Part shown: positions 7,183 to 19,823 of the stretch, piece by piece
Layout: every line of letters begins with the position of its first letter
Position numbering within the stretch: the first letter of the stretch is position 1
Virus record (IMG/VR): IMGVR_UViG_3300018416_000133
Coordinates: 1-22,070 of that record
Reading direction: 5' to 3' (one strand)
Source: a virus
Length of the DNA stretch: 22,070 nucleotides
Translations under genes and position numbers: made by a program
The notes under the pieces: generated by a model
The model's input: only the letters and a program-made list of their open reading frames with translations
What the model was told of the DNA's origin: nothing
Databases searched by the model: none

Positions 7183-7614
7183 CTAATCAACATTGAAGTT
7201 AATCTGTACTGCTGTGTTCGCAACCTTAGGTGCGTCAACTCTTAGTCCAGCTCTGTCCATTAAATCCCTAGAGGCTTCTAACCTTACGTGTGCTGACTTA
7301 CTACTTAGCAAATCTCTCATAGTTGCTAGAGCTTGTGTTGCGTCCCAACCCAAACAACTCATTGCTAACTGTTGTCTATACTCTACAACATGAGGCTTAT
7401 TAAGGGTTATATATGCCCATGACTTGTTTCTACCTAGTCGTTTAGCACCTTCTGTTGGGTTGCAACCATCATGCAACATTGCGTGTACCAGATCAGCTTG
7501 TGCTTCTGTTACCTTATTATGTTGTGGTAGTAATGATTGACTGTTCGTTTGTATATCACCCATTGGCACAACCGAACCCTTATACTTATCTTGTTGTGTA
7601 GAATTAGCTTTCAT
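7183..7614 (-). CDS. Terminase small subunit (probable)
   Basis: 143 residues, first gene of the leftward head operon. An N-terminal low-complexity region is followed by a helix-turn-helix-like segment (residues about 36-70: VTEAQADLVHAMLHDGCNPT, then EGAKRLGRNKSWAYITLNKP) and a C-terminal helical part with LEASRDLMDRAGL, which resembles small terminase proteins. TerS binds the packaging site and presents DNA to TerL. The gene pair TerS-TerL is interrupted only by the small basic gene at 6685-7029. The start has a weak ribosome site; an internal Met at residue 18 is possible. Confidence 0.75.
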   Translation of the reverse strand: MKANSTQQDKYKGSVVPMGDIQTNSQSLLPQHNKVTEAQADLVHAMLHDGCNPTEGAKRLGRNKSWAYITLNKPHVVEYRQQLAMSCLGWDATQALATMRDLLSSKSAHVRLEASRDLMDRAGLRVDAPKVANTAVQINFNVD

Positions 7615-8385
7615 TGTAGGTCTCTTATTGTTGCTCTACGAGAGGATAACCATACACTTTATATTGCTGTCTATTCACATTGCTAAGTCATTGTTATTAG
7701 TACCTTAATCCAGCCCTACTCACTAAGGAACGAGTTCCTAAGTTCACCGACACTAAGGTGTGTCGTCCCATTCGGGTAACGATCTGGGGTAAGCCTTTTC
7801 ATTACATTCCCTAGCAGGGGCTTAAGTGATCTTAATATTACGATTTGCAAATCGTTAGCCTTATTCTTCCCCTCGAAGTATCGAAGTCAGAATAAGTAAA
7901 TTCGATGCAGAACATAAGTGCTTCATGCACTATTATGTTCTTTACTCATGGCTACGTACCTATGATTGTATAACACGATATTGCATGGGGTAGCCCCCAC
8001 GCTTCAATCGTAAAACTTTGTTAAAGAGGACAAAGTTTTCTGTACGTAAGAATTTTGTCTGACTTACGTCAGGTCAAAACCGTGTACCACTTTCTAAGAA
8101 CAGGACTACTACTACTACTAGGTTCTGCACTGCTCTTTCTTCGAAGAGAGATACCATGCTCTACAACCCCTTCTCAAATGGTCTTGTTATGTTGTGATGG
8201 ATATCCCTCTCCCCATTTGCTCATTCTTCCTAGTAAGCCAAGATGAACTTTTTCTAAGCAGAAAAACTGGGCTTACACGGAATTTATCAAGGGGGTTTCC
8301 CAAGCATGAAACGGTTACTGCATCAGAGCAGTACATAACCCAGTAGGCAGTGCTGTTTAACTTAATGTCATTATAGGAGATTAAC
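7615..8385. other. Gene-free spacer of about 770 bp, rich in hairpins and palindromes
   Basis: The leftward head operon and the rightward early genes diverge from this spacer. No ORF with a ribosome site is present. It holds many stem-loops. Arms include CGACAC/GTGTCG (7748-7765), a perfect 16-bp palindrome ACGATTTGCAAATCGT (7840-7855), CTTATTCT/AGAATAAG (7860-7896), an AGAACATA-type hairpin (7909-7941), AAAACTTTG/CAAAGTTTT (8012-8039), ACGTAAG/CTTACGT (8044-8069), GTAAGCC/GGCTTAC with an inner TTTTTCT/AGAAAAA (8233-8276), and GGTT-ACTGC/GCAGT-AACC (8313-8340). A short ACT repeat lies at about 8104-8119. Likely roles: divergent promoters, a structured 5' leader, or an origin or packaging site. 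None is proven. Confidence 0.6.
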
Positions 8386-8592
8386 ATGACTAAATTACAA
8401 CAATTACAGACAATTATCGGACTTATAATCTTATTCACATTCGCACTTTTCATCGCAATTGTGTGTGGTGTCGGTGGAATACTTGCCATGGCTTGCAAGT
8501 TTATTACGGAGGTACTGAACGACTTATTCTACCTTCCTAATTTCATATGGTCAGAACTTACTGACAAATTTAACAACAAAGCCAACGCTTAA
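8386..8592 (+). CDS. Small membrane protein, 68 aa
   Basis: First gene of the rightward early block, with TAGGAGATTAAC ahead of ATG 8386. A long hydrophobic span covers roughly residues 8-40 (IIGLIILFTFALFIAIVCGV and onward), long enough for one or two helices. A soluble C-terminus ends SELTDKFNNKANA. There is no known family. As the first early product, it could alter the host membrane (for example superinfection exclusion), but that is speculation from position and topology. Confidence 0.65.
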   Translation: MTKLQQLQTIIGLIILFTFALFIAIVCGVGGILAMACKFITEVLNDLFYLPNFIWSELTDKFNNKANA

Positions 8593-8616: not shown

Positions 8617-8838
8617 ATGTATAAACAATTAGACTTATTTAACAAAAGCCAACCAAGTGATCTAGAGATATTAGATACTATGGTTTCATCTACTGGCATA
8701 CATGATTCATCAATGTCAGCTTATAACAGGGTCACAGATGTATTCACACAGATTGATTGGGATATACAGATTGCACAAGATGCTGGTGACCATTACAGAG
8801 TACGTGAATTGTACACAATCAAGCACGACATGAACTAA
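8617..8838 (+). CDS. Hypothetical small protein, 73 aa
   Basis: The leader GAAAGGAACATTACA before ATG 8617 is identical to that of the gene at 8903. The protein is acidic and soluble (LDLFNKSQPSDLEILDTMVS, then a TQIDWDIQIAQDAGDHYR run), with no membrane span. I recognise no family. It lies 24 bp after the membrane-protein gene, so the two are probably co-transcribed. The DAGDHYRVRELY part could be helical, but nothing gives a function. Confidence 0.6.
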   Translation: MYKQLDLFNKSQPSDLEILDTMVSSTGIHDSSMSAYNRVTDVFTQIDWDIQIAQDAGDHYRVRELYTIKHDMN

Positions 8839-12495: not shown

Positions 12496-14088
12496 ATGCA
12501 AATAGCATTAAATCAACTAAAACCTAACCCAAAAAACGTCAGGAAAGTAGTAGCTGACAATCTTGACAAGCTTATCGCCTCAATCAAATCAAGAGACTTG
12601 TTGCATAACCTTGTTGTTCAGAAAAACGGCAGTGGCTTTAACGTCATTGACGGCAACAGACGTTTAGAGGCTTTGTTTGCTATACACGGCAAATCTTCAA
12701 ACGTAGAAGTAGAATGTAAGCTAATAGAAGACAACACCACAGAAGTTGGTGCTATGGCTAACATGCTACGAGAAGATATGCACCCATTAGACGAAGCAGA
12801 AGCTATCAATCAGGTAGTGTCTGACGGCTTAATGGATTACAACACTCTTGCTGCAAACTGGGGTCAGACAAACAAATGGGTTTTACAACGTGTAGCCCTT
12901 GCTGATTTGTCTCCTACAGTCAAAGATGCTTTTAGAAACAAAGAATTTGGTCTAGGCATTGCACAATTATTTACTAATGTAGACCAAGAAACACAGGACA
13001 AAATATTTGCAGATTGCAATGGTCGTTATGACTATGACAACATTAAGTATTCTATAGGTAATGTAAAAATATCTAAGTCACGTGTTATTATCGATCCTAA
13101 ACACAGCATCTACAAGAATATAGAGTTTGCTGGTGACTTGTTTGACGATGGTCAGTATGTTGCTAACATGGATAAGTTCCTTGCTTTACAACAAGAGTAT
13201 GTCGATGAAAAAGCCAAATATTACAATAAGAAATTCAAAGATTGTACTGTTATTGACTGCCACCCATCGGAGGTCAAAGGCTTAATCAAAAACCTTATTC
13301 AAGTATATGAATATGACATCAAAAAAGAAGAAATAGACCCAAAAGATATTAATGTTGTTATTACATATCAACCATACAAAGGTAACTTCTGGGTTCAGAA
13401 ATACAAAAGCAAAATAGAAATGTCCAAGAAAGAACTAGATGCTATTGAATCAGGGGAAATACCTGAGCTTACACTAGCAGATATGTCTAACCCACAACGT
13501 GAACTTACACATAATTTATATTATAATTATTTACGGTCAGAGTTTTGGAAAGCTGGCGATGGATATACAGATGGACACGTTGCTCTTGCAATGATTTGTA
13601 ACAATATAGTCAGACCATCATACTTTGCTGATAATTACTCAGAGGTTGGTAAGTATTTTGTAACATACACAGATACACCTTTTAACAAAATAACAGGAGT
13701 TGACGATGATTACTTTGACAATCTTACTGAAGAAATTATTAAGTATTGTAAAACTAATAAATGCAATTCTTTGGAATATTTCCTCAACCAAAAGCCTTCT
13801 GATCTCCACAATGTACTTTATAAAGGGCTTGTGGCTTCGATGGGTGAGAGTCAAGCCTTTCAGTCGCAGAAAGACCACTACCATATACCTGTTGCCAAAG
13901 ACTGGTTTAAACCGTCAGAAGAATGGCTCAATAAATATAAAATAACTCAGCTTCGTTTACTTGCACATAAAGTCAAATGTAAGCTATTACCTCACGACAA
14001 CAAGAAACTAGTAATAGAGAAGCTTGTAAGTGCCTTTAAAGATGGTGCTGTATTCGATCCTATTAAGTTTCTTGATACTGTCAAATAG
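12496..14088 (+). CDS. ParB-like protein, 530 aa
   Basis: The N-terminus is a ParB/sulfiredoxin-type domain. LKPNPKNVRK opens it, DGNRRLEAL at about 52-60 matches the family's conserved Arg-rich motif, and LREDMHPLDEAEAI at about 91-104 is the next block. A helix-turn-helix follows (about 114-136: DYNTLAANWGQTNKWVLQRV). The remaining 390 residues match no partner I know and contain many Lys/Tyr-rich segments and a small C-terminal SAP-like region (ITQLRLLAHKVKCKLLPHDN). No ParA is adjacent. Known relatives bind DNA at centromere-like sites or act as nucleases; here the role could be DNA binding in replication, partitioning or host takeover. GGAGTG precedes the start. Confidence 0.75.
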   Translation: MQIALNQLKPNPKNVRKVVADNLDKLIASIKSRDLLHNLVVQKNGSGFNVIDGNRRLEALFAIHGKSSNVEVECKLIEDNTTEVGAMANMLREDMHPLDEAEAINQVVSDGLMDYNTLAANWGQTNKWVLQRVALADLSPTVKDAFRNKEFGLGIAQLFTNVDQETQDKIFADCNGRYDYDNIKYSIGNVKISKSRVIIDPKHSIYKNIEFAGDLFDDGQYVANMDKFLALQQEYVDEKAKYYNKKFKDCTVIDCHPSEVKGLIKNLIQVYEYDIKKEEIDPKDINVVITYQPYKGNFWVQKYKSKIEMSKKELDAIESGEIPELTLADMSNPQRELTHNLYYNYLRSEFWKAGDGYTDGHVALAMICNNIVRPSYFADNYSEVGKYFVTYTDTPFNKITGVDDDYFDNLTEEIIKYCKTNKCNSLEYFLNQKPSDLHNVLYKGLVASMGESQAFQSQKDHYHIPVAKDWFKPSEEWLNKYKITQLRLLAHKVKCKLLPHDNKKLVIEKLVSAFKDGAVFDPIKFLDTVK

Positions 14089-18244: not shown

Positions 18245-19110
18245 ACAAGTATCATGGAAAGGGACACTCCCCAAACTATAGCTTTAGAGATGCTACGATT
18301 GATTACGTCAATTCAAAAGAGTACATCGATGACTCAGAGCAAGGAAGAATACGATTTCTCAATAAGCATTTCGGGGATACCAGCCTTACTGACATTAACA
18401 ATGGAATGTTCGTTTCCATACTTGATCGAACTAAGCCAAGAATCAAACCTGGATATTACAATAGAATCAGAAACCAACTCCAATCAATTAGAAAATACGG
18501 ACTCCAGCAAATTGGAGATGGGCAAAATATTACACTTCCCAAAATCTACCAAAGAAAAGTAGAAAAGAAAAAACCCGTATTCCTTACATATCTAGAACAG
18601 GAAGCATTAATCAATGAGTTTAACCCCATTCTCAAACCACTTATCATTTTCCTTTGCTATACAGGAGCTAGGGTTGGTGAAGCCGTTAGCCTATTATGGG
18701 AAAACGTCGATATGGATAAACGCCGAATCATATTCTGGAAAACCAAGAACGGTGATTTTAGGTCTATCCCAATGCATAACAGGATTTATGAAAGCCTACG
18801 TGGTATCAACAGAGAACGAACAGGTCCAGTATTTCTCTCAACAAAGCTCAAGCCTTTCTCATATCTCACTAACAGAAACACTAAGCCTCTGGACAAAACT
18901 CATACAAACGCTGTCAAAAGAGCCTTTGGTGGTACAAAAAGATTCACAGTACATAACTGGAGATCACATTGGGCATCAACACATGCTTTAATTGGTATTA
19001 ATGATAAGAAGCTAATGGCTCTTGGTGGTTGGAATGATCCTAGATCAGTATCAGCTTATGTAAATCTAAACCCAGATCAGCTTATGAACGACATTAACAA
19101 AATGAAATAA
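18088..19110 (+). CDS. int: Tyrosine integrase
   Basis: 340 residues from TTG 18088, with AAGGACAGGG upstream; the frame has no Met start and is closed by TAA at 18064-18066. An N-terminal arm-binding and core-binding part is followed by the catalytic domain. R195 is in YTGARVGEAV, Lys in WKTKNGD (K218 or K220), H289-x-x-R292 in VHNWRSH, W315 in GGW and Y324 in SVSAYVNL: a full active-site set. It catalyses integration at the attP core located 120-190 bp downstream. It overlaps the upstream excisionase candidate by 157 nt. Confidence 0.92.
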   Translation: MLQVRKRKDSPYFQIKGTIQLPNGTFRVRQSSGTSDIKEAELIALKIHKEVLDKYHGKGHSPNYSFRDATIDYVNSKEYIDDSEQGRIRFLNKHFGDTSLTDINNGMFVSILDRTKPRIKPGYYNRIRNQLQSIRKYGLQQIGDGQNITLPKIYQRKVEKKKPVFLTYLEQEALINEFNPILKPLIIFLCYTGARVGEAVSLLWENVDMDKRRIIFWKTKNGDFRSIPMHNRIYESLRGINRERTGPVFLSTKLKPFSYLTNRNTKPLDKTHTNAVKRAFGGTKRFTVHNWRSHWASTHALIGINDKKLMALGGWNDPRSVSAYVNLNPDQLMNDINKMK

Positions 19111-19119
19111 CCCTCACAA

Positions 19120-19134
19120 CAGTAGTGGGAAAAG
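19120..19134 (+). repeat. Left arm of an inverted repeat flanking attP
   Basis: CAGTAGTGGGAAAAG at 19120-19134 is inverted at 19346-19361 as CTTTTCCCCACTACTG, one extra C. A second inverted pair is AAATATGTTT at 19138-19147 and AAACATATTT at 19388-19397. They bracket the att core and may be integrase- or Xis-binding sites. Confidence 0.6.
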
Positions 19135-19165
19135 AATAAATATGTTTATACTAAAATAAGTCTTG

Positions 19166-19183
19166 TGGCACAGAATTGGCACA
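19166..19183 (+). repeat. Integrase arm-site candidate, left pair
   Basis: TGGCACA occurs twice, spaced 11 bp (starts 19166 and 19177). The same doublet, spaced 12 bp, lies at 19439-19457 on the other side of the att core. Paired direct repeats flanking an att core are the usual arrangement of integrase arm sites. Confidence 0.65.
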
Positions 19184-19194
19184 AAAAGAGAATA

Positions 19195-19206
19195 ACTAGA
19201 TAATTA
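19195..19206 (+). promoter_or_regulatory. Operator-like site near attP
   Basis: ACTAGATAATTA differs by one base from the first 12 bases of the operator word at 16140. A further copy, CTAGATAACTA, lies at 19379-19389. A regulator or Xis may bind here to influence integration. The short length leaves chance possible. Confidence 0.45.
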
Positions 19207-19227
19207 CACTATCTTAATCAAGGGTGG

Positions 19228-19295
19228 AAGCTAAACATGAAAGCAATAAGAAGACCGTGTAGAGGTCAGGGGTTCGAGCCCCCTTAGCTCCACCA
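19228..19295 (+). other. attP core: copy of the 3' end of a tmRNA (ssrA) gene
   Basis: The T-arm AGGGG, loop TTCGAGC, CCCCT (19268-19284) is followed by a TAGCTCC acceptor strand (19285-19291), A and CCA (19293-19295). A GACC/GGTC hairpin with a seven-base loop precedes the T-arm, and further upstream CTAAACATG resembles the CTAAGCATG of tmRNA. The preceding bases do not form a tRNA anticodon arm, so tmRNA fits better than tRNA-Ala, although the T-arm/acceptor alone would fit either. There is no complete tmRNA gene here. Confidence 0.75.
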
Positions 19296-19438
19296 ATTCC
19301 CAAAAAAAAAGACCATAATGTTAGGCGATCTAACACTTACAGCCTCTTTTCCCCACTACTGCCGAGTTGGGCAATACCTAGATAACTAAACATATTTGTA
19401 CGATTATGATCAATTCACATTGCTAATGCCGATATTTT

Positions 19439-19457
19439 TGGCACAGAAATTGGCACA
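19439..19457 (+). repeat. Integrase arm-site candidate, right pair
   Basis: TGGCACA starts at 19439 and 19451 with GAAAT between. It matches the left pair at 19166-19183 except for one extra A in the spacer. Confidence 0.65.
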
Positions 19458-19477
19458 GTTTATGTGAATGGAAAAAT

Positions 19478-19511
19478 AAAGGGACAGCCTTAACATAAAA
19501 ACTGTCCCTTT
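19478..19511 (-). terminator. Possible terminator in the attP region
   Basis: AAAGGGACAG pairs perfectly with CTGTCCCTTT (10 bp, 14-base loop). Read leftward it is followed by ATTTTTCC, so it could end leftward transcripts coming from the lysis genes. Read rightward there is no T-run. Confidence 0.5.
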
Positions 19512-19559
19512 GAAGGTGCAATTTTACATTAATCTATTTAAATAACAGGAGGTATTCAC

Positions 19560-19823
19560 ATGAAGGACTTTAATTATTGTAAAGAATGTGGGGAAAAACT
19601 AAAAGAAGTAAAAATAACAAGAACTAAACCTTTATCTTGCTCTAATTGCAGAGGTAATTCTCAAAACCATGCATTTAGACAAATAATGAAAGAATGTGCA
19701 GAGATGTCTCAAGAAGAAGAAGGTAGGTTTGAAGACATTGAACATGATCCTGAAGAAAGAATAATGATGAGATCAAGAGCTACGAATCATATAGGAGTTA
19801 GAAGTAGTTTAAATAACTTTTAA
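19560..19823 (+). CDS. Zinc-ribbon protein, 87 aa
   Basis: A strong ACAGGAGGTATTCAC ribosome site precedes ATG 19560. Two CxxC pairs, C7/C10 (YCKECGE) and C27/C30 (SCSNCRG), form a zinc ribbon. The rest is charged and helical (MKECAEMSQEEEGRFEDIEH). It lies on the strand opposite to the lysis genes, overlaps the end of the endolysin by 15 nt, and would be at the prophage end after integration. Expression from the lysogen is plausible; the role is unknown. Confidence 0.7.
   Translation: MKDFNYCKECGEKLKEVKITRTKPLSCSNCRGNSQNHAFRQIMKECAEMSQEEEGRFEDIEHDPEERIMMRSRATNHIGVRSSLNNF

Follow-up and report, generated by a model that had tools for sequence, protein, structure and literature searches.

A candidate large structured RNA with exchangeable domains between the early genes and the terminase genes of marine podovirus-like phages

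The spacer that separates terS from the early genes in a lineage of marine phages probably encodes a large structured RNA (~600-700 nt), read on the late strand toward terS and composed of exchangeable domains; the probability of this reading, which is drawn from sequence comparison, is put at about 0.6. That the element acts as RNA, and on the late strand, seems quite likely. In the proposed mechanism, the RNA would be transcribed from the late (-) strand during lytic growth and would consist of domains that fold independently and bind a protein or another RNA. The comparisons show that the domains are exchanged between phages at sharp edges and that helices are preserved by compensatory change.

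The late-strand RNA reading is supported by spacer alignments that fold, double compensatory changes, matches to one module on the terS strand, the placement of a recurrent motif, a single stem position that runs through A-U, G-U and G-C, an excess of late-strand wobble pairs, the late-strand fold of one spacer type and domain swaps. Points against it are that a conserved 5' promoter and a terminator ahead of the terS promoter are both missing, that several groups of spacers lack a strand preference and one folds better on the early strand, that fold z-scores are similar on both strands, that the spacer forms share no common motif, that one module is absent from most sources searched, and that some spacers fold weakly.

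Phage lineage and genomic setting

The window, i.e. the whole 22-kb stretch of viral DNA analysed (22,070 nucleotides), carries late genes on the - strand (major head protein, head-tail adaptor, TerL and TerS) and early genes on the + strand (SSB, ParB-like, repressor-like, RecE-like exonuclease, Sak-like annealing protein and integrase). Given this gene content and strand layout, the phage is most likely temperate and podovirus-like. Its source is a marine virus of bacteria from an abundant marine podovirus lineage represented by hundreds of contigs; the window's TerL shares 56% identity, over 91%, with the TerL of Pelagibacter phage EXVC031P Hodr. A prokaryote genome scan returned one terL relative (L221, 53%). 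The ParB-like protein (530 aa, 12496-14088) lies in the early region of this integrase-carrying phage, and no ParA-like match was seen among the proteins scanned. Past the integrase gene, ~450 bp without a clear gene (19110-19560) might hold an attachment site.

The gene for the terminase small subunit, terS, is called at 7183-7614 on the - strand. The first early gene (8386-8592, + strand, ATG at 8386) encodes 68 aa with no assigned function; among the terS-scan loci, homologues of it occur in a few close relatives only (L002, L003, L004, L029, L030), and the early region of most other loci begins with a homologue of the window gene at 8617. The isolate EXVC031P Hodr has a similar layout, its terS being divergent from the neighbouring gene across a 337-nt spacer in which a long hairpin and a TTGACA-N17-TATACT site are visible by eye. 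A hypothetical protein in the EXVC031P Hodr annotation (L222:1922-2302) matches the lineage TerS at 52%. No comparable spacer exists in BcepC6B and MEP301, whose TerL is more distant and in which terS is immediately preceded by a gene. Neither the window spacer nor the L220 spacer had a match in DNA searches of annotated phages.

Folding and coding status of the spacer

Folding and relatives together define a structured non-coding spacer of 771 bp (7615-8385) between the divergent terS and first early gene, bounded exactly by the base after the terS start and the base before the ATG. Two ORFs overlap it, of 63 aa (+) and 103 aa (-). A coding spacer was rejected and the spacer taken as non-coding, because in relatives these ORFs lose the start codon, gain stops or diverge.

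An initial annotation had described a hairpin-dense region between late and early genes, and the folding agrees. When the late strand is folded locally, 19 hairpins form, nine of them with at least 7 pairs, and the - strand tile 7711-8481 has the lowest z (-9.2) among the 56 strand tiles of the window, several others of which also reach about -4. Against dinucleotide shuffles, the spacer scores z -4.1 (+) and -4.8 (-) with pairs at most 150 nt apart, and -4.2 (+) and -6.1 (-) with no limit on pair distance. A strict count (perfect stems of at least 7 bp, loops of 3-10) finds two hairpins in the spacer and five window-wide; mononucleotide-shuffled spacers average 0.38 with a maximum of 3, and 26 other tiles hold 0 or 1. 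The hairpin density is genuine; many of the small stems are near chance taken singly, since the strict count gives only two. The annotated perfect 16-bp palindrome, ACGATTTGCAAATCGT, is indeed present at 7840-7855; the window has just one other perfect palindrome of at least 14 bp. It is identical in five of ten type I relatives (L002, L003, L014, L038, L039) and replaced by other sequence in the rest.

Mosaic architecture and conserved pairing

Three terS scans yielded 97, 592 and 327 encoding loci. Of the 97 relatives in the first scan, 80 loci were kept; the spacer was usable in 40 of these, 23 of them distinct, and late-strand z lies above -2 in 5 of the 23. With position 1 set at 8385 on the late strand, homology to the window breaks at two recurrent places, ~595 (window 7791) and 684-689 (window ~7700), which mark off module A (1-595), module B (595-688) and, nearest terS, a stretch that holds a promoter-like site. 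The window's module A (7792-8385, - strand) is the 5' part on the late strand, and its edge at ~7791 is sharp in many relatives. It occurs in two interchangeable forms: type I, the window's own (10 sequences), and type II (11 sequences aligned). L032, counted with type I, is a recombinant whose first 237 nt are 99% identical to type II L031 and whose remainder is type I. Module B is exchanged as well: L014 joins a module A of the window type to a different form of module B, and L029 carries both module B forms in tandem. No sequence motif is common to all spacer forms.

Within type I, the core (7897-8122, - strand; alignment A1) has 53 consensus pairs, of which 7 show double compensatory changes, a number that none of 500 shuffles attained. 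Alignment and folding place in or around it, all on the - strand, a co-varying hairpin of 12 pairs at 8051-8081, in which TGACGT/ACGTCA becomes TGTCGT/ACGACA in L032; a co-varying hairpin of 10 pairs at 8012-8039; a hairpin at 7983-8002 whose tip is exchanged as a block in relatives; and a co-varying hairpin of 13 pairs at 7909-7941. Local folding adds a hairpin of 14 pairs at 7860-7896. In type II, double changes affect 23 of 78 pairs, long-range helices included, again with 0/500 shuffles as high. Both types share the single-stranded run GUAGUAGUAGUA (8107-8118, - strand), seen in alignments and folding.

Module B (7690-7794, - strand) is a 105-nt domain on the terS side, supported by covariation, in which a closing helix surrounds three hairpins. 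In its alignment (A7; 20 of 22 sequences, leaving out L065 and L002, a near copy of the window), 93.4% of cells are paired, as against 24-46% in slid-alignment controls, and 10 of 22 pairs show double compensatory changes (0/500 shuffles as high). The closing helix switches from CCAG/CUGG to CCUG/CAGG among relatives. One C-G pair is replaced by A-U in L016 as well as the distant L045, and by a mismatched A-G in L187. A covariance model of module B has matches at E <1e-4 in 8 of 75 sources, the window copy included, always on the terS strand, and finds no module B in the other 67. It matches the distant contig L065/L123, which is absent from the model, on the terS strand at E 1.4e-5; two weak opposite-strand matches (E 0.2 and 0.65) look like chance.

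The same holds beyond the window's own forms. Nine spacer alignments were built, comprising type I, type II and seven clusters of at least 4 distinct members each from the two further terS scans; the consensus-fold test used 9 of 10 type I sequences (without L032) and 11 of 13 type II sequences (without L006 and L045). Against column shuffles, the consensus folds of the late strand score z -4.6 to -21.1 and those of the early strand -3.5 to -16.1; two control alignments of terS coding sequence give -0.1 to -2.1 (late strand -0.1 and -1.8). With G-U forbidden, 145 of 669 pairs in the spacers show at least two Watson-Crick types, compared with 4 of 100 in the controls (summed). In two other terS clades (66/89 distinct spacers folded), median z is -3.3 to -4.0, as against -1.1 to -1.7 in terS. 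Because all nine alignments beat column shuffles and the terS controls do not, the structure is judged to be kept by selection across relatives. Conservation of pairing had been named beforehand as a check on the annotated suggestion of a functional DNA or RNA element; the double compensatory changes in modules A and B, which preserve pairing in relatives, support that suggestion.

Recurrent hairpin motifs

A stem-flanked motif with an asymmetric internal loop, UCU(U/C)UGU...GAG, was located at 24 distinct sites when 2.28 Mb of DNA was scanned. Counting within 1000 nt, 17 of the 24 lie 372-716 nt upstream of terS and on its strand. Four more (L125, L197, L198, L194) likewise have terS downstream on the same strand, the contigs of two (L187, L206) showed no terS, and the L219 site looks like chance; a site found later, in L388, fits the same placement. 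The stems are wholly different and the loop constant (AAUCUUA/UAAGAUU in L072, AAAAUAC/GUAUUUU in L125, CAAACUCC/GGAGUUUG in L303), and one stem position reads A-U, G-U and G-C in L197, L202 and L198. Carriers span three terS clades, namely the window type, the L202 type and L303 (nearest L220). Pattern-scan matches in L212, L213, L217, L189, L204, L385, L386, L387, L389 and L390 were judged to be chance, as were most unmatched rows of a further pattern scan.

A second motif, GCC-CAACUGGA-GGUU, recurs in type II; it is also present in phages with a TerS identity of only 30-33%, and there runs such as GUUGUUGUAGUAG follow it. The window's type I module holds neither recurrent motif, only the run at 8107-8118.

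Promoters and the relation to terS

A promoter-like site directed toward terS, TAGACA-N19-TATCCT (7673-7643, - strand), lies between module B and terS. Among 116 distinct loci, the best promoter-like site in the 130 nt next to terS begins with TTGACA in 92 and with TAGACA in 15 (107/116). In L214, L215, L218 and L220, the stretch from the promoter-like box to the terS start contains a repeated GGGGGG element, AAAGGGGGGAACACAAGGGGGGTTC. No conserved promoter at the RNA 5' end or for the early genes was found in 21 loci, and PF00940 (phage-type RNA polymerase) had no match in 12 relatives, nor in control genomes.

The position of the conserved box bears on whether the RNA stands alone. Since it separates the RNA from terS, a self-standing RNA is likelier than a part of the mRNA made from the terS promoter, and the chance that the spacer yields a self-standing non-coding RNA of the lytic cycle falls somewhat short of even. 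More tentatively still, it may represent an uncatalogued class, a large, domain-swapping non-coding RNA at the early/late junction that would act in trans in the lytic cycle, for example as a scaffold or in packaging beside the terminase. The alternative closest to it is a cis-acting late leader, in which a transcript would start near the early gene, run through the RNA into terS and alter RNA polymerase or protect the late mRNA. The RNA and terS keep the same strand and order in all forms with terS present, and no terminator-like site was found between module B and terS; the window also has a candidate promoter, TTGTAA-N19-TATAAT, at 8400-8370. That site is shared only with L002 (the window copy), L003 and L029, and this lack of conservation, together with the promoter-like box between the RNA and terS, makes the leader rather doubtful, though still a serious rival.

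RNA or DNA

A DNA-level element, i.e. cruciforms or protein sites acting on the double strand in replication initiation, packaging start or regulation, would account for a structure nearly equal in strength on both strands (single-sequence fold z is alike on the two) and for a position beside terS. In the late fold, wobble changes affect 99 pairs and double Watson-Crick changes 185, and the small share of wobble leaves room for such a role. Wobble nevertheless has a direction, which argues for RNA. In the co-varying helices of a strand-symmetric search that treats G-U and A-C alike, 47 late-strand and 24 early-strand pairs show it (p 0.009 in a binomial test that treats pairs as independent), with a small bias in the same direction from a late-strand G+T of 0.51-0.55. 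An earlier test, run with G-U forbidden and hence of little power, gave 48 vs 35 pairs. Also against a DNA element are the A-U, G-U, G-C series, the fixed asymmetric internal loop with its variable stem, and the long-range helices.

Packaging and replication, both raised in the initial annotation, can be considered here. A packaging site beside terS finds no support beyond its position. Among contigs of at least 30 kb, 1 of 35 has an end within 800 bp upstream of terS (0.8 expected) and 4 of 35 end within 1 kb (2.1 expected). These counts show no clustering of contig ends in the spacer and speak against fixed packaging ends there, as a weak test since assembly hides true ends. Cumulative GC skew turns near 8750 but tracks gene direction elsewhere. 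A DNA-level element is on balance unlikely, but it too is a serious rival.

Late and early strands

Groups c (14:1) and i (7:1) and type II (6:2) contribute most to the late-strand excess of wobble; in type I (3:5), group b (5:7) and group d (7:6) neither strand is preferred. Late-strand RNA is thus modestly favoured for the family by the comparative evidence, and for the window the suggestion rests on module B and positional homology.

The initial annotation had also offered a long structured early leader, an untranslated region of the early mRNA that would control the first early genes. Group b gives this idea some support, its consensus folding better on the early strand with slightly more early wobble. 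Group c (L319, L323, L329, L333, L340, L367, L368) carries near terS an inverted copy of the early gene's first codons; the resulting stem of ~27 bp closes the whole spacer and changes together with the early gene start, a pairing that would also suit an early leader. The overall wobble points the other way, the window's own 5' module excepted, the early-strand fold of type II is poor (consensus z -3.5, vs -12.6 late), and there is no conserved early promoter on the terS side, so that an early leader is not favoured and seems improbable. Absence of function, with inverted repeats kept perfect through strand switching in replication, would fit stems in which pure Watson-Crick pairing predominates and changes come in blocks, but is very improbable given the long-range co-varying helices, the conserved loops and linkers, and a spacer of 500-957 bp kept in all 23 distinct relatives measured.

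Comparison with known RNAs

The late-strand RNA proposed here matches no catalogued family. Scans with all 4227 Rfam families gave nothing above chance in the window region or in 17 relatives, and a known RNA family was rejected on that basis. The GOLLD and ROOL models had no match, for GOLLD even with E values allowed up to 5 in the window region and up to 1 in the 17 relatives, and no packaging-RNA model matched in the window region or the relatives scanned. No tRNAs were found in the window or in 36 relative loci, which are fragments, and a tRNA-linked RNA was rejected for this reason. A literature search of open-access journal papers, mostly at abstract level, returned no description of this element.

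Phage phi29 pRNA is a packaging-linked phage RNA that serves a different packaging system. A packaging link is suggested for the spacer RNA by its place next to terS only; pRNA is far smaller, and the Rfam scan of the spacer stayed at chance level. HK022 put RNA acts in antitermination and, like lambdoid late leaders, is a structured RNA near an operon start that acts in cis on transcription. These are much shorter, and in the present lineage the conserved promoter-like site stands after the spacer RNA.

GOLLD is described as a phage-encoded RNA of hundreds of nucleotides with an elaborate co-varying structure, a conserved 3' part and a more variable 5' part, and ROOL as phage-encoded, ~600 nt long and ornate; both often lie near tRNA islands, and neither has a known function (PMC12286853). 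The spacer RNA would resemble GOLLD in being phage-encoded, in a 3' part more conserved than the 5' part, and in a large multi-domain structure backed by covariation, one of the GOLLD criteria, which also include a homo-oligomeric cage. With ROOL it would share phage origin, comparable size and ornateness. It differs from both in having no match to the Rfam models and no nearby tRNAs, and from GOLLD also in standing beside terS. The best reading of these comparisons is that the spacer RNA would be a modular RNA that evolves fast, like GOLLD and ROOL in kind without being a member of either family.

Significance

Few large structured phage RNAs are known, and the spacer RNA would be a further example, in a constant and interpretable position between the early genes and the terminase operon. 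Its relatives (97, 592 and 327 loci) are numerous enough for strong comparative work, and EXVC031P Hodr, an isolated phage with a similarly placed spacer, provides a testable system.
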